The translations under genes were made by a program, and so were the position numbers. A stretch of 50,450 bases of DNA from NCBI GenBank assembly GCA_021157525.1, contig JAGGWK010000022.1:1-50450 (forward strand). The letters are read 5' to 3'. The DNA is from Candidatus Cloacimonadota bacterium. GTDB lineage: Bacteria; Cloacimonadota; Cloacimonadia; Cloacimonadales; TCS61. Below the pieces are notes generated by a model, which did not search any database, was not told the origin of the DNA, and saw only the letters and a list, made by a program, of their open reading frames with translations. Positions 17,543 through 26,565 of this stretch are shown one piece after another (the first letter of the stretch is position 1; the number at the start of each line of letters is the position of its first letter).

Positions 17543-18415
17543 TTAAATATTACCGTTGTGTGAATGTGCTCTTTTACTGGATTCTGATAGTGGGCCAATG
17601 TCGAGTATCTTACCCAATCGCTCGCCCATATGACGCACATAATCATTCTCATCATTCATCCAGTCTTCTATCGTTTGTGTCGTGAGAATCACAAATTCGT
17701 TGTATCTGTCCCGACGATTTTTCTGAACCACAATGTTGGTAAGTTTTTTCATGGAAACCCAGATGGTTTTAATCCGTTTGTCTTCCCCTTCGATGAGCCA
17801 TTCGCGGATGTAAGGGAAGGCGATAATGGGATTTACCCGTGCCACCTGCGTAAGGATGTGGGTGATCTTCTTTTGCACATCTACCGAATCGTCATCAATG
17901 GCATAGGAAATAAAGTCCATAATATAGCCGGGGTCATTTTCAGAAACCGCTTCCATCCCGTGAAATGCCAGAGCGCGTTGTCGCTCGTTGTCAGATTTCA
18001 CCCATTGAATCATGGTACGCTTCATCAGCTCAGGATCCCGCTTCCACATCTCATTTATCAGCCCTTCCACTTCCCAGGGTACGCTCTCGAAATAGCGCGT
18101 GATGAGCTCGACAATCTTATCGGTTTGGGTGCCATACTTCTCATAAAAATAGAAAAGCCCAGTAGCCCTAACGCCATATATCTTATGATCCATCATGCGC
18201 TGAGCAATTGGATCTACCAGTGATAAATCGTGGTATCCAACCAGATGCTTGCCGATGTATTCTCGAACAAAATAATTCGGAGTCTTTGATAGGGTAATGA
18301 GTTTTTCCTCAACTTCTTTGAGTTTCCGATCATCAAAAAGCTCAAAAATCTCATGCATGATGTGATCGAGCTCACTGATAGCTTCGGTGTCTAATCTTCC
18401 AATTTTCTTTAACAT
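17543..18415 (-). CDS. HEAT/DNA-alkylation-repeat-like helical protein
   Basis: This 290-residue protein has no signal peptide or membrane segment. It reads as a series of paired amphipathic helices with features of the HEAT-like repeats of DNA alkylation repeat proteins (for example YFVREYIGKHLVGY, GLINEMWKRDPELMKRTMIQW and a C-terminal DWMNDENDYVRHMGERLGKI). Related proteins include AlkD-type glycosylases and non-catalytic relatives; I see no residue that decides catalysis. AAGGA precedes the ATG by about 7 bases. It is separated from the upstream 5'-nucleotidase by hairpins and is probably its own unit. Confidence 0.55.
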   Translation of the reverse strand: MLKKIGRLDTEAISELDHIMHEIFELFDDRKLKEVEEKLITLSKTPNYFVREYIGKHLVGYHDLSLVDPIAQRMMDHKIYGVRATGLFYFYEKYGTQTDKIVELITRYFESVPWEVEGLINEMWKRDPELMKRTMIQWVKSDNERQRALAFHGMEAVSENDPGYIMDFISYAIDDDSVDVQKKITHILTQVARVNPIIAFPYIREWLIEGEDKRIKTIWVSMKKLTNIVVQKNRRDRYNEFVILTTQTIEDWMNDENDYVRHMGERLGKILDIGPLSESSKRAHSHNGNI

Positions 18416-18565: not shown

Positions 18566-18599
18566 AAAAGAGGGGCACACTATTGTCTGCCCCCCTTTT
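18566..18599 (-). terminator. likely terminator of the HhH-OMP-nucleotidase operon
   Basis: AAAAGAGGGGCA pairs with TGCCCCCCTTTT (12 bp, one A-C mismatch, 10-base loop) about 40 bp beyond the 5'-nucleotidase stop. A second 7-bp hairpin (ATAAGGG / CCCTTAT) sits at 18612-18632. The T-run is only partial on the minus strand. Confidence 0.6.
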
Positions 18600-18636
18600 A
18601 CAAAGGAATGTATAAGGGACAAAAGCCCTTATTTTT

Positions 18637-20250
18637 CTAGTCTTTCTGAACCCACCGATTGTCTATCTTTGCAGTAACAGGCGAATTTTTCCGAATATAT
18701 TCCACAATGGCATCCCGAAGATTCATTTCATACCGGGTAACCTGTTCCTCAGGAACTTTGGTAAGCATTGAGAGACCAGCGTTTCCCTGGAGCAGAAAAT
18801 CGGTAGTTACCACCCGGTAGATCTTATCAGGATCCAAGGGCTCTCCACCTACCAGGAGCTTTGTTACCCGGTCGAAGTTCTTACGCTTCTTGGAATATTC
18901 CACAGTTACCCCGGCTACCCGCAAGCCATGCCGCCCGCCAGATACACGAAATTCGATGATTTCCTTTAAAAAGGCTCCGTTGATTTCCATCATCACTATC
19001 TGATTATCAAAGGGCATCACATTAAAGACATCCCGATAGCTAATTGGGCCCATCTTCAGTTCACCCCGAACACCACCCAGGTTTAAAAAAGCAAAATCGG
19101 CATCGGCATAGTCAAGCATGGATTCACATACCAGATTTCCAATCAGGCTCTGGGCTCCATTACCGAATTTACTCAGATGCATGGCAGCTTCACCGACGAT
19201 ATCATCCATACCTTCTTCGGCAATTGCCTGGTTGGCAGCAATAGAAGAGGCAATCTCGGCATCGGGTAAAAATTCATCTTCAAACAGCGTAAGTAATGCC
19301 CCTTCTCTGATGGCAGGAAGTTGATATCCAGCCAGAGTTTTGGTAACGGGATCTATCTTCAATGTGATGTGTCCGATACTGCTGCCATAGGCCCATCCCT
19401 GAATCACCAGGGTGTGAGTGTCGGGATCTTCCCAAGGTTTGGAGACCCCTTTGTGCATGTGGCCGCCAAAGAACACATCGATGCCCTTTACTTCGTGTGC
19501 CAATTCCTGTGCATCATAGCCCCATCGACGCTCTCCACTGTAGGTACGGCCACTGAGGTACCGACGATCATAGGCCGGCTGAGGATCGTATGGAAGACCC
19601 ATATGCCCCACCACAATCACTACATCCACACTGTCCTTAATGAGATCAACGTATTTTTGCAATTCCACTTTAGCAGGAAGAAAGTCCACATTCTTGATGT
19701 TCTCGGGAAAGCTCATCTGCTGTGTATCGGTGGTGGTCACGCCGATTATCCCAAACTTCACCCCCATCTTTTCACGGATGATGTAGGGAGTAACGTAGGG
19801 AACCAGCTCTTTGGTGCCTTTGCGAACAATGTTGCAGGAAAGCACCGGTAGCTTAATCTTGCTGTAGGTTTCCATAAGCGCTTCTTCACCGATGTCATAT
19901 TCATGATTGCCTACCACGGTAAGGTCGTAGCCAATCTGATTGAAGTATTCTACCACATAGGCGCCTTTTGATACGGTACCCACCGGATGCCCCTGAAAAA
20001 AGTCTCCGGCATCCACTAAAAAATTATCTCGGGTTCGCCCATTGCTCATCTGGCGCACATCCTTGATATAGGTAGCAGCAGAGCCACCACCACCTAACTG
20101 CGGTGGAAAATCCGGGTTGATAAAGGTGGCAGCGTAGGAATCTATGCCTCCATGGATGTCATTGGTAAAGAGCACATCCAGCAGCAAATCATCGGCCTGC
20201 ACCATCGCCATCGTCATAACAAGGGCGAGGAAAATCAGTAAACCTTTCAT
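18637..20250 (-). CDS. secreted 5'-nucleotidase / bifunctional metallophosphatase (UshA-like)
   Basis: The 537-residue protein carries a signal peptide (1-19) and the calcineurin-like metallophosphatase motifs FTNDIHG (28-34), DAGDFFQGHP near 80, VVGNHEYDIG near 120, VVGHMGLP near 215 and GGHMHKG near 260. The C-terminal 5'-nucleotidase substrate domain follows (about 340-510, with LNLGGVRGEL and MPFDNQIVMMEING). Such enzymes act outside the cytoplasmic membrane and release nucleosides and phosphate from nucleotides or cleave UDP-sugars. It is the last gene of a tight operon: its start is 7 bp after the stop of the outer-membrane protein gene, with AGGTG overlapping that stop region. In this setting it could feed on nucleotides from imported or degraded DNA; this is inference. 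Confidence 0.9.
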   Translation of the reverse strand: MKGLLIFLALVMTMAMVQADDLLLDVLFTNDIHGGIDSYAATFINPDFPPQLGGGGSAATYIKDVRQMSNGRTRDNFLVDAGDFFQGHPVGTVSKGAYVVEYFNQIGYDLTVVGNHEYDIGEEALMETYSKIKLPVLSCNIVRKGTKELVPYVTPYIIREKMGVKFGIIGVTTTDTQQMSFPENIKNVDFLPAKVELQKYVDLIKDSVDVVIVVGHMGLPYDPQPAYDRRYLSGRTYSGERRWGYDAQELAHEVKGIDVFFGGHMHKGVSKPWEDPDTHTLVIQGWAYGSSIGHITLKIDPVTKTLAGYQLPAIREGALLTLFEDEFLPDAEIASSIAANQAIAEEGMDDIVGEAAMHLSKFGNGAQSLIGNLVCESMLDYADADFAFLNLGGVRGELKMGPISYRDVFNVMPFDNQIVMMEINGAFLKEIIEFRVSGGRHGLRVAGVTVEYSKKRKNFDRVTKLLVGGEPLDPDKIYRVVTTDFLLQGNAGLSMLTKVPEEQVTRYEMNLRDAIVEYIRKNSPVTAKIDNRWVQKD

Positions 20251-20257
20251 TGTTCAC

Positions 20258-21616
20258 CTACCATTTATAGCTTATAGAGGTTGTAAGTCCCACAGTGGTT
20301 TCTTTTACCGTATCCGGCTTATCCCAGCCACGATCCGCCGGCTCTATCTCGTTCCACAGTTCAGGATAATCATAAAAACTATCCATAAAAAGATCCAGAC
20401 ATTCGTAGGTACGATAGTTAAACTGAGCCGCTACATCCACGGTTACCTTGGGCAACACGGCAAATCCGGTACCCAAAGAAAATCCCGGTGTCGTGATTTC
20501 CTGACCATACACTATGCCGTCTTCATCGACGGTGGTGTAGGTAGTTTCGTACATGAAGCCCATGCGCAGTGGCAGGCTGGATGCAAAACGATGCTCCACA
20601 CCACAGTAATAATTCAGCACATCATCATAGCGGCTGGAAACGTCTGACCACTTCACAAAGCGCACATCGGCATTGAAGTACGTGCGCATGATGTTGCGGG
20701 GTTCGTAGCGCACACCGGCGCGGATTTCTGCCGGCAATGTGTAGGTATCATAGGCATCATGCAGGTTGGATGCCGTTGCTAATGAATCCAGCAGCACGCC
20801 ATTTTCGTTGCCACTGAGGGTTGCATCCAGTTCGGTCTTGGCAGTGTAACTGCCCGCCAGAACAAAACGTTGGCTGACGCGATAGGTTATACCCCCACTT
20901 AATTGGATGGCTGCATCAAAATCCCGTTTCAAAGAAAAATCGGCATCCTGAAGATTTGTACTGCCGGACACCAGATCGTAGGCGGCATCAGCCCACACAA
21001 TGCGGCGTCGAAGAGATGTATCGCCATACAGGTAATTCACACCGATACCAGCTGAAATCATATCGGTATAGCTCAGAGCGATCTGCATCCCGCCTGCCTG
21101 AATGCGCCCTTTCCCATCGATGCTGTTGCGGGCAATGATGGGAGGATATTCTTCATAATTGGAATTGGCGTCGTTACGCACCTGCTCGTCATATTCACTG
21201 TAAAAATTCACCACAGGACGATGGGACAGCGCCACCGCCAGACGAAGGTCATCCAGCTGAAGAGCATACTTCAGAGCGAAGGTATAATCGTCGAAGAAAT
21301 TGGCATTGGTGGCATAGGTTGCATCGCCCACATAGCTATCAAAGAAATTGTACATAGGTAAGGAGCGATCATCGTTGTTTTTGGCCACATAGGCACTGGC
21401 CTGCAATTGCAGCGCTGCATCCATAAGGCCGATATTGGCGGGATTTACCACGCCATCCAGCAATGAGAGCCCTCCAGCTACCGAAGCACTTCCCATACCG
21501 GCTGTGCGGGCATCAAAGTTCCGCACCATATCACCGGCTTCCCGATTGAGTAATGAGTAGCCAAATCCTGCCTGCATCAGGCCTATCAAAAGTGTTATTG
21601 CTATCAGTCGTTTCAT
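20258..21616 (-). CDS. FadL/PorV-like outer membrane beta-barrel protein
   Basis: The 452-residue product has a signal peptide (1-19) and an N-terminal plug-like segment, RNFDARTAGMGSASVAGGL, followed by VNPANIGL, a pattern common to OmpP1/FadL/PorV-type proteins of the FCB group. The rest alternates hydrophobic and polar residues as in membrane beta strands and ends in an aromatic residue (SISYKW). FadL relatives transport hydrophobic molecules, while PorV is part of type IX secretion; the sequence does not decide between these. GGAGG lies 4 bases before the ATG. It sits 10 bp after the HhH protein gene, so the two are cotranscribed. Confidence 0.7.
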   Translation of the reverse strand: MKRLIAITLLIGLMQAGFGYSLLNREAGDMVRNFDARTAGMGSASVAGGLSLLDGVVNPANIGLMDAALQLQASAYVAKNNDDRSLPMYNFFDSYVGDATYATNANFFDDYTFALKYALQLDDLRLAVALSHRPVVNFYSEYDEQVRNDANSNYEEYPPIIARNSIDGKGRIQAGGMQIALSYTDMISAGIGVNYLYGDTSLRRRIVWADAAYDLVSGSTNLQDADFSLKRDFDAAIQLSGGITYRVSQRFVLAGSYTAKTELDATLSGNENGVLLDSLATASNLHDAYDTYTLPAEIRAGVRYEPRNIMRTYFNADVRFVKWSDVSSRYDDVLNYYCGVEHRFASSLPLRMGFMYETTYTTVDEDGIVYGQEITTPGFSLGTGFAVLPKVTVDVAAQFNYRTYECLDLFMDSFYDYPELWNEIEPADRGWDKPDTVKETTVGLTTSISYKW

Positions 21617-21626
21617 CTGTCCTCCA

Positions 21627-24257
21627 TTAAAATTTCCAGTCTAACTGCAAGCGCAGCGTATGATCTTCCCGTTCTACCCGATCGAAATAATCGGCCATCC
21701 CGGGCTCGGGCTCGTTCCACCAAGCGCGGAATTCATACTCGTTGGTTACATATTGTTTGATTTTGTATTTCATCGTTACGTAGAGATTATCGGATATTTT
21801 GTCCTGAATGGAAAACCAGTATTTCAGACCCTGTTCACCCATAAAGTCGATCTCAATATCTTCCCAGTCCCAGTGGCTCACGCCATTGCCATCCCACACC
21901 ATAAAGGCACCCTGAACTTTGAGGTTGCTGTTGAAATTGTGGGTATAATCCACAGCGATGTAATCCCCGTGTGTAAGCACGTTTCCAGCCACCAGTGTGT
22001 TTCCCGGGTCTGGATCGTTTGTAAGATACGGGTAGGGCGGTTGCCACACGGTGAGATAGCGATATTCCATAGAAATGCGGTCCATCGCAGAGAGAAAGAA
22101 TCGTACCGACAGTGTGGTTTCATCGGTTTTGGAAACAGCCCGATCGGCGGTATCGTCATAGCGATTTGTCTGGTGTTTGTATTTTGCCCGCAGACTCAGC
22201 TGGTGTATGGGACGGAAGTCCAGTTCACCTTGGAAGCGTACGCTCTTGCGGGAATCGGCCTTACGTTCCCACAGGTCGAGGTAAGTACGATTCAGGGTAA
22301 GATACTTATTTATGCGATAGCGAGCTTCCAGATAGACCCCTTTTTCGGCCTGAGCCTGAGCGGAGTTTATTGCCATATCGGCGATGAGGGGATTGGCCAT
22401 GGCATAGCCGTAACTATCCAGCGCTGTACCGTCAAAGCGCTCATGTTCGCTAAAACCACGGGCGTAGGGATTATCAAATCCCAGATCGTAATCCCGATAC
22501 AGCGAGATGAGATAGAGATTATCGAATTGGCTGTAGGAACTCAGGATCAGCGCTTTGGGATCGTCGCCAAGTTTGGCCTCTTTCCCATCTACGCTCAGCT
22601 CGGCATACTCACCCTGGATGGATGTGTTGTTGAGCACAGTACGCCAGTCGAAACCGATAACCCGACGATAATCCCGATCGTAGCCAGAGGTTTTGGTGCT
22701 ATACATCGATTCGATTTCAGAATTGATGGTTTTGTATTTTTCCGCTGCATCTTCTTCATACATAAAGAGGAGCGCTTTGAGGGAATCATTTTGAGGTACG
22801 GAAATATCGCGATCGTACACCGCTTCATAGCCGGTAAATCCCAGATGGGTTCCCACCCATGGACTGTATTCCAGATGAGCACCCAAAATCTGTTCTTCCA
22901 ATGCATCCAGCCGTGGCGCAATATTGATGTCATGTGTAATCTTAACAAATCCATCCTGCGTATATTCATTATAAAAGGTTTCACTCTCTTCCAAGTCGTC
23001 ATTGGAAAAGCGGTTTGTCATGGTGATGTAGCCCAGTACATCGTCGTCGTCATCCAGCACGCCGTCGCCATTGGAATCATACACCACAGCATCTTTGTCA
23101 TCATGAGAAAAGAAGAAAGCGGCGTTGAAATGGGGATTATCCCATTGGGCGGCGATGCCGTTGAGGGCATATTCCTGCGAGCGGGACAAATCTTCGGTGA
23201 TACCGGTGATCCGTTTGCTGAAACCATAGCCGGTTTTTCGGGAACTGAAGAAGTCGGTGTTTTCCATCACCAGTCCTTCGGCGAAAGTGGCCCGGTAGTT
23301 TCCGGCAATCACTTTTATTCTATTGGATGCATCCAGCTGTTTTTCATAGGATGCAAAATATTTCATGTTCACGCCATCTTCAAAGAAGTCGGCTTGTGGC
23401 AGAGGATTACGGTATTTTTCGGTATATTGCAGAACCCCGGCTTTGATGTCTCCGCCATAGCGCATGCGCAATTTATTGATCACCTGGGGCGTATTATTCT
23501 CCAGGTCAAAATAGCCCCAATATCCCTGCTTCTTGATTTTTGGTGTAGTGGAATTGGGATCATAACCACCACCGCTTTCGACTTCATGCAGATTGATGAA
23601 TGAGGTGTTGTACATATCCCAGGCAGCTTCGTCATACTCGTTGGTGTTGTATTTCATCTGGTAATCGAAATAGATCCGGGGCGCCTGAGCTTTATCGGCA
23701 TAATAGACGTAGTGTCGCAGGTTGGATGCACCGTAAAAGGAGATGCCCGGAGACTGGCGCATATCCCGATAACTGCTGAGGGTATCGCCCAAAACCCGCC
23801 GATTGAGGATAGCGGCTGCATCCAGCGGAGAGGTATTTGGCATATTCAGAATCTCGTTGAAGGTCATGTAATTGATATTCCGCGGGGTGGTAAGATAATC
23901 TTCCCACACATCGCTGAGACCCTCTTGAAATCCTTCGTTGGCTCCCAGGCGCTGGATAAGATAAAAGATCTCGTTCCGTCGCTCTGCCGCCGCATCATTG
24001 GTGGTAAAATGAGATACCGACACCAGCGGCTTGATTTTGAGCAAAGTTACCTGATCGATTGAGGTGATATTCCGCAGGTCATAAAGACTCTCGAAATAAC
24101 CGATGTACGTACGATAAGCGTAGATATCATCGGCCTGTTGCGCTGTGATTGGCAACTGACCCAAATCCTCCCGGGAGGCCTCATTGATATCTATCAAAGC
24201 AGACGCTACCGCCATTATCATACACAATCCGAGAAAAATGAAAACTCGTTTCTTCAT
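21627..24257 (-). CDS. outer-membrane protein with N-terminal helix-hairpin-helix (ComEA-like) DNA-binding motifs
   Basis: The 876-residue protein has a signal peptide (1-20), then a ComEA-like HhH module at 21-80 (INEASREDLGQLPITAQQ ... FESLYDLRNI) and a second HhH-like module at 131-185 (MTFNEILNMPNTSPLDAAAI ... ISFYGASNLRHY). From about 190 it consists of long alternating strands rich in Y, W, N and D, and it ends LRLQLDWKF, an outer-membrane beta-barrel signature. ComEA-type HhH modules bind double-stranded DNA non-specifically in the periplasm during transformation. A barrel preceded by such modules is known as a domain arrangement in the FCB group, but its role is not established as far as I know. 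It opens an operon with an outer-membrane protein and a 5'-nucleotidase, and faces a pilin-like gene. AAGGA precedes the ATG. Confidence 0.75.
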   Translation of the reverse strand: MKKRVFIFLGLCMIMAVASALIDINEASREDLGQLPITAQQADDIYAYRTYIGYFESLYDLRNITSIDQVTLLKIKPLVSVSHFTTNDAAAERRNEIFYLIQRLGANEGFQEGLSDVWEDYLTTPRNINYMTFNEILNMPNTSPLDAAAILNRRVLGDTLSSYRDMRQSPGISFYGASNLRHYVYYADKAQAPRIYFDYQMKYNTNEYDEAAWDMYNTSFINLHEVESGGGYDPNSTTPKIKKQGYWGYFDLENNTPQVINKLRMRYGGDIKAGVLQYTEKYRNPLPQADFFEDGVNMKYFASYEKQLDASNRIKVIAGNYRATFAEGLVMENTDFFSSRKTGYGFSKRITGITEDLSRSQEYALNGIAAQWDNPHFNAAFFFSHDDKDAVVYDSNGDGVLDDDDDVLGYITMTNRFSNDDLEESETFYNEYTQDGFVKITHDINIAPRLDALEEQILGAHLEYSPWVGTHLGFTGYEAVYDRDISVPQNDSLKALLFMYEEDAAEKYKTINSEIESMYSTKTSGYDRDYRRVIGFDWRTVLNNTSIQGEYAELSVDGKEAKLGDDPKALILSSYSQFDNLYLISLYRDYDLGFDNPYARGFSEHERFDGTALDSYGYAMANPLIADMAINSAQAQAEKGVYLEARYRINKYLTLNRTYLDLWERKADSRKSVRFQGELDFRPIHQLSLRAKYKHQTNRYDDTADRAVSKTDETTLSVRFFLSAMDRISMEYRYLTVWQPPYPYLTNDPDPGNTLVAGNVLTHGDYIAVDYTHNFNSNLKVQGAFMVWDGNGVSHWDWEDIEIDFMGEQGLKYWFSIQDKISDNLYVTMKYKIKQYVTNEYEFRAWWNEPEPGMADYFDRVEREDHTLRLQLDWKF

Positions 24258-24323
24258 AGACTTTCCTTCTATTTCCTTTTAACTTTGTACGTTTCTACAC
24301 AATCCCCAACGTAAGGGGAAGTA

Positions 24324-24352
24324 AACAAAATAAACCGGCTTTGTCTTGTCAA
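24324..24352 (-). promoter_or_regulatory. probable promoter of the HhH-OMP-nucleotidase operon
   Basis: TTGACA (24352-24347) is followed after 17 bases by TTTGTT (24329-24324), giving a leader of about 60 bases with a ribosome binding site. A small CCCC/GGGG hairpin (24304-24318) lies in the leader. Confidence 0.55.
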
Positions 24353-24387
24353 AGTGTTTTCCATAATGAGGCTCTGGGAAAAATTGT

Positions 24388-24416
24388 TTGACAACAGATA
24401 TTCGGTTCGAATTCTT
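24388..24416 (+). promoter_or_regulatory. probable promoter of the pilin-like gene
   Basis: TTGACA (24388-24393) is followed after 17 bases by ATTCTT, or after 18 by TTCTTT; the -10 is T-rich and weak. It lies back to back with the promoter of the divergent operon. Confidence 0.45.
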
Positions 24417-24440
24417 TGCTATGAAATTTATGGAGGGAAC

Positions 24441-24953
24441 ATGGATAATAATTCTTCAATAGAACAAAAGAGCAAGTTTTCATTAATTGAGCTCTTGATG
24501 ATCATCATGATCGTAGGCATTGTATTCACCCTGATTATACCTATTCGAACGGACAGAGTTAATCAGGAGAAAGTGAAAGAAGCAATAAAAAATCTACAAA
24601 TCATTGCACGGGCTGATGTCGCCTGGAAAAACGATGTTGATGGCGGAGACGGCTCTTATATGTTTGAGCACACAGTGGTACGGTATGAGCCAGCTGCAAA
24701 AGATTCTATGGGAAACATCATTCCTCCACAGGAAGCTGGAGAAGACCTGCTTTATGTAGCAGATAAACTGGAAAAAACAGGTGAATTCTTCTTCTTTGAT
24801 TATGCCATTACCGATTCTTCTGTCGTCGCTATATCCAATCAAAATTTTGGGACAGAAGGCGTAAAGATTCAGTATTTTCTTCCTCGGGGTCCATTCCAGG
24901 CCGGGAAAGATGCTGTAACCAAAAGCATCATTGACGTTAATTGGTTACCATAG
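24441..24953 (+). CDS. type IV pilin-like protein with atypical processing site
   Basis: The start is the ATG at 24441, preceded by GGAGG; the frame extends upstream but without a ribosome binding site. The 170-residue product has a short polar leader, then FSLIELLMIIMIVGIVFTL, the class III N-terminal helix with Glu at position 5 of the mature form, followed by a 130-residue soluble domain (RADVAWKNDVDGGDG ... IQYFLPRGP). The residue before Phe is Lys (QKSK/F) rather than the Gly normally required by prepilin peptidase. It could be a minor pilin or pseudopilin of a type IV pilus or type II secretion-like machine. No other pilus gene is in the window. It is divergent from the HhH outer-membrane operon and followed by a strong hairpin. 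Confidence 0.75.
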   Translation: MDNNSSIEQKSKFSLIELLMIIMIVGIVFTLIIPIRTDRVNQEKVKEAIKNLQIIARADVAWKNDVDGGDGSYMFEHTVVRYEPAAKDSMGNIIPPQEAGEDLLYVADKLEKTGEFFFFDYAITDSSVVAISNQNFGTEGVKIQYFLPRGPFQAGKDAVTKSIIDVNWLP

Positions 24954-25011: not shown

Positions 25012-26565
25012 ATGATCACTCCACTTTTTGCCAGTTACGCAGAGATTCATTATCATCTGCCTCTGCTCTATCCCGCCTATTTCCGGCGGTATCCCGAGAT
25101 CATTACCGACGTTCCTACCCGGGTGATCCGCCCAACAACAGCAGGCATTCCGGTCGCTCTTATTATCAAGGATGCACACCGCTACCCCTGCACTGTTGTC
25201 TCTCTTCTGGTGCGTATCTCCGGGAGTGAGCAGCAACGCACCAAACTATTTGATCTCAACATATCCCTTTCACAACCCTACTTTGCCAAATGCTTTTTCC
25301 TGCCCCACGGTTCCTTTGCTGCGGAGCAATATCTTCACATCGAAACGGAGATCGTCGTCCGGATCAAAAATCGCACAAGACGCTTTAAACAGGATAGCTA
25401 TCCCGGATTGCGAACACCTTTTTATTCCACTTATCTCACCGATTCACCCCTTCCATTCCCCCCAACCTGGTTCGCCGGAGATCCCCATTACCACAGCATC
25501 TTCACCCAAGATCAGGTGGAGTTTGGTGCAGACCTGGTCACCACCAGAATCATGGCCCAAGCCCTGGGACTTTCCTGGTATTTTGTTACCGACCACTCCT
25601 ACGACCTGGATGACTGCATCGATAGCTACACAAAAAACGATCCTGCTCTGCCTCTATGGCACAGGATGCAGGAAGCGGTGGGCCACGCAGACAGTGCAGC
25701 GGTGCGGATTATCCCGGGGGAAGAAGTTTCGATAGGAAATTGCAAAGAGCACAACGTTCATCTGCTGGCGATACAGCATCAGGATTTTTTGCCCGGCATG
25801 GGGGACAGCGCAGAGGAATGGGGTAAAAATACCCCAACCACACCTCTGCGGGATATCGCCACCAAACATCATCCCACCAATCTCTTTATCGCAGCACATC
25901 CCGCAGAACCGGCACCTCTATCTCAAAAGTTGCTCCTCAAACGCGATCACTGGCACGAGCAGGATTTTATCGACGGAGCCATCACTCATGGACAGTTCAT
26001 CAATTGTAACGAAACTCCGGATGTTTTGCGGGGAATAAAGGCATGGACGGCGTTACTGCTCAAAGGGCACCACATCTTTTTAATGGCGGGAAATGACGCC
26101 CATGGAAACTTTAATTTCATGCGCCAGATCAAGCTCCCCTTCCTCACGTTGTTCGTAGCAAAAAAACAAACCTTCGGCGCAGTTTTCACTGTCTTCCAGC
26201 ATCAGAGTAACGACCCGGTAGCCGGATTGAAAGGGGGAAAAATCATCGTCAGCAATGGCCCTTTTATCACTTTTGAATTACGCACAGACCACGGCATCTA
26301 CCCCATGGGATCCACAGTTTCCGCTTCCGTTGCCACAGTGCATTATCAGGCTGCATCCATGGCTGAAAAGGGAGAAATCTCGGAAATAGTGCTTCATGTG
26401 GGCAATGTAGAAACCGGCATAGAAAACGCGACACCGGCACCACCGGATGGCTCATCCATCCAGTTGCCACCAGAGGGTTACCTTCGTATGGCGCTGTACA
26501 CACAAAAAAAGGGACTGGCTTTTACCAACCCCATCTGGATAAAGGCAAAATCTACCAAAATCTGA
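25012..26565 (+). CDS. CehA/McbA-type PHP-fold metallohydrolase
   Basis: The 517-residue protein has PHP metal-binding motifs: GDPHYHS near 157, WYFVTDHSYD near 190, IPGEEVS near 235, NVHLLAIQ near 248, AAHPAEP near 300 and AGNDAHG near 365. An N-terminal beta domain (about 1-150) precedes it, and a beta-sandwich tail follows (about 400-517). Members called CehA/McbA include a carbaryl hydrolase, but most have unknown phosphoesterase or ester substrates. No signal peptide is visible. No ribosome binding site precedes the ATG; the terminator-like hairpin of the pilin gene ends 5 bases upstream, so the start or the mode of expression is unclear. The 3' end overlaps the convergent tamB by 14 bp. 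Confidence 0.8.
   Translation: MITPLFASYAEIHYHLPLLYPAYFRRYPEIITDVPTRVIRPTTAGIPVALIIKDAHRYPCTVVSLLVRISGSEQQRTKLFDLNISLSQPYFAKCFFLPHGSFAAEQYLHIETEIVVRIKNRTRRFKQDSYPGLRTPFYSTYLTDSPLPFPPTWFAGDPHYHSIFTQDQVEFGADLVTTRIMAQALGLSWYFVTDHSYDLDDCIDSYTKNDPALPLWHRMQEAVGHADSAAVRIIPGEEVSIGNCKEHNVHLLAIQHQDFLPGMGDSAEEWGKNTPTTPLRDIATKHHPTNLFIAAHPAEPAPLSQKLLLKRDHWHEQDFIDGAITHGQFINCNETPDVLRGIKAWTALLLKGHHIFLMAGNDAHGNFNFMRQIKLPFLTLFVAKKQTFGAVFTVFQHQSNDPVAGLKGGKIIVSNGPFITFELRTDHGIYPMGSTVSASVATVHYQAASMAEKGEISEIVLHVGNVETGIENATPAPPDGSSIQLPPEGYLRMALYTQKKGLAFTNPIWIKAKSTKI

Follow-up and report, generated by a model that had tools for sequence, protein, structure and literature searches.

A conserved outer-membrane operon of Cloacimonadota that is most likely not a DNA-uptake locus, and a dispersed word that is probably an uptake sequence in the same genome

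The 50,450-nt stretch of DNA analysed here (the window) belongs to a metagenome-assembled genome (MAG) of Candidatus Cloacimonadota, and the close homologues of its genes come from Candidatus Cloacimonadota MAGs. It contains an operon of three genes, encoding a large outer-membrane protein with helix-hairpin-helix (HhH) modules (hereafter HhH-OMP), a FadL-like barrel and a 5′-nucleotidase, which an initial annotation had proposed to be a DNA-uptake or scavenging locus, together with a divergent pilin-like gene and a recurrent word, GGATGCA. For the locus itself this interpretation is most likely wrong, yet it hints at a real feature of this genome. The three genes are:

21627..24257, minus strand: HhH-OMP, 876 aa (open reading frame, HHH_3 match at 5.8e-9, family alignment, AlphaFold2 (AF2) model)
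20258..21616, minus strand: FadL/Toluene_X-family outer-membrane barrel, 452 aa (PF03349, 33.2 bits)
18637..20250, minus strand: exported UshA/CD73-type 5′-nucleotidase, 537 aa (5_nucleotid_C at 3.4e-34 and Metallophos at 1.1e-13)

All genes of the initial annotation were found at or near the places it had given them, and its intergenic gaps of 10 and 7 bp are exact. The conservation that it had suggested checking is clear, as HhH-OMP, the FadL-like barrel and the 5′-nucleotidase occur in the same order and orientation in 20/20 relatives read, from several families. In other families of the order the three genes stand amid unrelated neighbours, and their being kept together there indicates a self-contained unit. 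Of the 59 genomes compared, drawn from the family and order, 52 encode a homologue of HhH-OMP, with 45-64% identity and a mean column identity of 53% in the alignment; four of the seven genomes that lack it are at least 90% complete. The operon is thus an order-wide outer-membrane module of Cloacimonadota. HEAT-YbbR-TsaD genes stand downstream of it mainly within the family, where a HEAT-repeat protein of 290 aa that matches DNA_alkylation (PF08713; window 17543-18415) is kept downstream of the operon.

In HhH-OMP a signal peptide precedes two helical modules of HhH origin (residues ~20-185) and a beta barrel of ~25 strands (~195-875). The AF2 model, with a local confidence (pLDDT) of 73.6 and a predicted template-modelling score (pTM) of 0.69, contains two helical N-terminal modules followed by ~25 beta strands. 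Of the two HhH modules originally described, the first is detected by Pfam, while the second is deduced from the AF2 model and the alignment only. In ComEA-type HhH domains, Gly-hydrophobic-Gly (GhG) hairpins contact the DNA backbone. Across 34 homologues, the hairpins of HhH-OMP read LPITExQA and IxSIDQxT, and the DNA-contacting GhG hairpin was found in 0/34 in both module 1 and module 2. The N-terminal HhH region is also acidic, with a charge of -7.3 in the window and a median of -9.4 in the 34 homologues. These sequence features suggest that the modules are probably no longer DNA-binding, and with them the argument from HhH to DNA uptake fails.

Searches of the HhH-OMP fold against solved structures returned generic barrels only (ushers, TonB receptors, MtrB), with query-normalised TM-scores of at most 0.31, and the searches made linked it to neither SprA nor BamA, whether by sequence or by a specific fold. 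Two sets of possible relatives were set aside: long HHH_3 proteins in related genomes, considered as paralogues, resemble Tex proteins by eye, and an HhH transformation gene of Riemerella was set apart by description only, its product being periplasmic and carrying three HhH domains (PMC8459023).

Pfam confirmed the other two members of the operon as first annotated. The FadL-like barrel passes PF03349 (Toluene_X) with 33.2 bits against a gathering threshold of 29.7 (E = 2.7e-8). Against solved chains its profile gives weak matches to BamG, TbuX and PorV, the best being BamG in two Bacteroidota BAM complexes (3.8e-6), with PorV at 8.6e-4; the FadL-type transporters TbuX and CymD score similarly. 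The barrel reaches only 51 bits on the BamG model NF053685, for which the cut-off is 250. A better BamG candidate is encoded on another contig (G000:C5:39475-40581), with 105 bits, which is also below the cut-off, and no Cloacimonadota copy passes it. Hence the window gene was ruled out as BamG, and on sequence grounds its product is a predicted paralogue of BamG. The third gene encodes a predicted 5′-nucleotidase of the UshA/CD73 superfamily, with Metallophos and 5_nucleotid_C domains and the metal-site residues N30, D31, H33, D83, N115, H116, H216, H264 and H266, which are invariant. It resembles CD73 and UshA, and its nearest solved relative is 3ivd (1.6e-72).

Our best guess is that the operon is an outer-membrane module for transport or nucleotide salvage. 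The two barrels would form an outer-membrane transport complex, and the exported 5′-nucleotidase would strip phosphate from nucleotides entering the periplasm, allowing the salvage of nucleosides and phosphate. The main rival to this proposal, like it an interpretation, is that the two barrels form a complex for protein secretion or assembly in the outer membrane, similar to SprA-PorV or BamA-BamG, with the FadL-family barrel as lateral partner. BamG and PorV, both among the solved matches of the FadL-like profile, are partners of large barrels (PMC12611786, PMC12578637), and the high conservation of the HhH-OMP barrel would suit a housekeeping machine. However, the genome has its better BamG candidate at another locus, the transporters TbuX and CymD match about as well, the HhH-OMP barrel is missing from several nearly complete genomes, and the nucleotidase would have no obvious role in such a complex. 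A secretion or assembly function is therefore possible, though unlikely.

The remaining features of the locus are the ends of the operon and two genes on the opposite strand:

18571..18632, minus strand: possible terminator hairpins at the operon 3′ end (18612-18632 by scan, ~18574-18599 by eye)
24258..24440, no strand: 183-bp intergenic region separating the divergent HhH-OMP and pilin-like genes
24441..24953, plus strand: pilin-like membrane protein, 170 aa, with E at +5, K at -1 and an acidic soluble part
25012..26565, plus strand: CehA/McbA-family PHP-type metallohydrolase (NF038032, 88.2 bits; cut-off 80)

The number of terminator hairpins at the operon 3′ end is not above that in shuffled sequence. 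The divergence of the pilin-like gene stands, but the back-to-back promoters attributed to it gained no support, as promoter-like matches in the 183-bp intergenic region are not in excess of the shuffled expectation.

The start of the pilin-like gene was set at the ATG at 24441, and not at the GTG at 24354, because its homologues begin there. Its product has a weak match to GspG (6e-6) and no pilin match in Pfam. With Phe or Met at +1, Glu at +5 and a hydrophobic helix, the family has pilin-like features, and F13 is nearly invariant and E17 invariant; position -1 is K or E in 23/23 members and never Gly, whereas G at -1 is invariable among the major pilins read in the pilus clusters of 19 genomes. 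The soluble part is acidic (isoelectric point 4.6). The model contains a helix at 15-63, and a fold search gave no match at E 0.001, the confidence of the model being too low. The usual partner of this gene in relatives is the gene for a CehA/McbA-family metallohydrolase; another such enzyme, belonging to the same conserved two-gene pair, lies at L195:5016-6539. In contrast to the functional link with the operon that had been proposed, the pilin-like gene goes with its CehA/McbA neighbour, and its adjacency to the operon is no functional link: of 59 genomes, 37 have both the barrel and the pilin-like gene, 15 the barrel only, 5 the pilin-like gene only and 2 neither (odds ratio 0.99). In G044, a genome of another family without HhH-OMP, the pilin-like and CehA/McbA pair directly adjoins a type IV pilus (T4P) cluster, so that the pilin-like gene may well belong to pilus biology.

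DNA uptake in the host genome is most likely carried out by a separate canonical machine. Of the competence genes that the initial annotation had looked to, ComEC and DprA are indeed present. A type IVa pilus (T4aP) cluster on contig C82 (L192:4383-19225) encodes PilD, PilC, PilB, a PilQ-type secretin, PilO, PilM, PilT and PilA, recognised by profile, together with PilN/P-like proteins and minor pilins assigned by position. A canonical ComEA, membrane-anchored and bearing four GIG hairpins, is encoded on C35, ComEC on C23 and DprA on C72, and uptake would run through these components. The co-occurrence of ComEC with the barrel, of the kind that the initial annotation had suggested testing, does not go beyond chance: in the same 59 genomes the counts are 41 with both, 11 with the barrel only, 6 with ComEC only and 1 with neither (odds ratio 0.62), incomplete MAGs adding noise to both sets of counts. 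In three genomes, each more than 90% complete (G009, G014 and G044), the barrel is missing while ComEC, T4P ATPases and secretin are retained. Two large accessory proteins, with lengths of 683 and 695 aa, are also encoded in the C82 cluster. A second pilus- or Tad-like cluster lies on C11 (L087), with ATPases of 605 and 418 aa and a secretin of 394 aa, and contains two consecutive gaps in the occurrence of GGATGCA, of 7.5 and 8.1 kb.

The over-representation of GGATGCA is strong and specific. The window contains 56 copies against 12.4 in shuffled sequences, and the genome 2080 in 2.23 Mb (1036 and 1044, equal between the strands), or about one core per kb, compared with 140 copies (71 and 69) of the reversed control. 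In 1.14 Mb of coding sequence, the two strands carry 559 and 493 copies, while shuffling synonymous codons within genes gives 190 and 128 (z 35-39). The word reaches 3-4 times the codon-shuffle expectation overall, and 4.2-4.4 times with C at -2. This C, found in 55% of the copies, gives the extended form C-N-GGATGCA, and positions -13 to -5 are T-rich. The density of this form is 517/Mb here and ~70/Mb at most among 124 other Cloacimonadota genomes; G002 has only 7 copies in 1.8 Mb, an apparent depletion. In five relatives, k-mer scans of ~95 kb each found no comparable dominant word. The copies within the operon are:

20579..23823: ten GGATGCA words, at 20579 (+), 20822 (-), 21084 (-), 21416 (-), 22902 (-), 23325 (+), 23328 (-), 23349 (+), 23724 (+) and 23817 (-)

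With the genome-wide rate predicting 5.2, ten copies (P = 0.04) are not striking. As the operon spans the order and enrichment of the word is confined to this one genome, the operon cannot explain the word. T4aP, ComEA, ComEC and DprA elsewhere in the same genome, together with a word over-represented on both strands in one lineage, make the word look like an uptake sequence. C-N-GGATGCA probably acts as one: it would serve the canonical machine and, like the uptake sequences of Neisseria and Haemophilus, would owe its spread to biased transformation.

The principal alternative for the word is that GGATGCA is an abundant word of the HIP1 type, or one linked to methylation. GGATGCA overlaps the recognition sites of FokI (GGATG) and SfaNI (GCATC), its spacing is near random, and the overlapping palindromic form GGATGCATCC occurs 82 times in the 1.31 Mb over which the genome was read in stretches. 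On the other hand, the excess of this palindrome is, by estimate, within about twofold of that for two independent sites, the word has an extended, asymmetric context that recalls extended uptake sequences, with its C at -2 and T-rich flank, and the full set of competence genes is present. Moreover, low GC content marks several of the longest stretches free of the word, and on inspection by eye their reading frames resemble type I restriction or other foreign genes. We therefore consider this alternative improbable. The low-GC word-free stretches include L201:8047-17761, L208:1-5549 and L211:1-5909; other long word-free stretches consist of core genes, the T4P cluster among them.

Taken as a whole, an operon for salvage or transport combined with a separate canonical uptake machine that reads C-N-GGATGCA is the best explanation of these observations, to which we give a probability of about 0.5. 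Several points weigh against it. Some HhH domains bind DNA despite non-ideal hairpins. For the operon, what has been shown is its parts and their linkage, the substrate of the barrels and a complex of the three proteins being inferred, and a nucleotidase beside a barrel would also suit the digestion of DNA as food. The spacing of GGATGCA is not more even than random (coefficient of variation 1.11 against 1.02 ± 0.03), although even spacing is a secondary feature of uptake sequences and not a strict requirement. The host genus is represented by one genome, a MAG. Lastly, no receptor for the word could be named among the pilins examined, namely the minor pilins and PilA of C82 and the pilin-like protein of the window. 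PilA has a sub-threshold ComP_DUS match and is alike in all relatives; for the basic minor pilin the host genome is no outlier, and some relatives without the word also have a basic one; the pilin-like protein, as a ComP-like receptor, is acidic, lacks Gly at -1 and occurs across the order, in contrast to the enrichment of the word in a single genome.

That the operon is itself a system for DNA uptake or scavenging, with the barrel as DNA channel, the HhH modules holding periplasmic DNA and the nucleotidase finishing its digestion, is very doubtful, since the HHH_3/ComEA similarity of module 1, the wide barrel of the AF2 model, the nucleotidase within the operon and the competence genes of the genome are set against GhG hairpins lost in 34/34 homologues, acidic modules, an operon that contains no nuclease, ComEC and T4P in barrel-less genomes, a canonical ComEA and a PilQ-type secretin that already fill these roles, and a barrel independent of both the pilin-like gene and ComEC.

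Compared with ComEA, module 1 of HhH-OMP aligns over the full HhH_3 unit (Pfam 5.8e-9; TIGR01259 3.3e-9), but scores 36.8 bits against the TIGR01259 cut-off of 152.35 and fails, a cut-off that the canonical ComEA of the same genome, with 113.5 bits, does not reach either. HhH-OMP further differs in being acidic, in lacking the GhG hairpin and in its fusion to an outer-membrane barrel of ~25 strands. It thus serves as a warning that an HHH_3 match by itself is no evidence of DNA binding, and its operon represents an order-wide outer-membrane module without a solved relative. As in SprA-PorV and BamA-BamG, a large barrel is encoded together with a FadL-family barrel, which belongs near the FadL/TodX/BamG/PorV superfamily, BamG, TbuX and PorV chains being its nearest solved sequences, but remains below the NCBIfam cut-offs for both PorV and BamG. 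The 5′-nucleotidase shares with UshA and CD73 both domains, all metal-binding motifs and a signal peptide, with 178.7 bits against the UshA equivalog cut-off of 600. The pilin-like protein shares with type IV pilins and GspG the hydrophobic N-terminal helix, E at +5 and, in its low-confidence model, a beta-rich C-terminus; its family differs in K or E at -1, a conserved C-terminal WLP and the CehA/McbA gene partner.

According to a 2025 paper, uptake motifs are known from no families other than the Neisseriaceae and Pasteurellaceae (PMC12616744), and a literature search, limited in coverage, found no uptake sequence in Cloacimonadota. We lean towards the view that a Cloacimonadota lineage has evolved sequence-marked natural transformation, in which a T4aP-ComEA-ComEC machine prefers DNA with C-N-GGATGCA and of which the window operon is not part; this would be a third independent origin of uptake sequences, outside the Proteobacteria. 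Like the DNA uptake sequence of Neisseriaceae and the uptake signal sequence of Pasteurellaceae, C-N-GGATGCA occurs at about one copy per kb, on both strands and mostly inside genes, has an extended flank and is accompanied by competence genes. It differs in its phylum, Cloacimonadota, and in its shorter core and weaker fold-enrichment. A dispersed word with the hallmarks of an uptake sequence in an uncultured, distant phylum offers an independent case in which to study what drives the evolution of such sequences and by which protein they are read.

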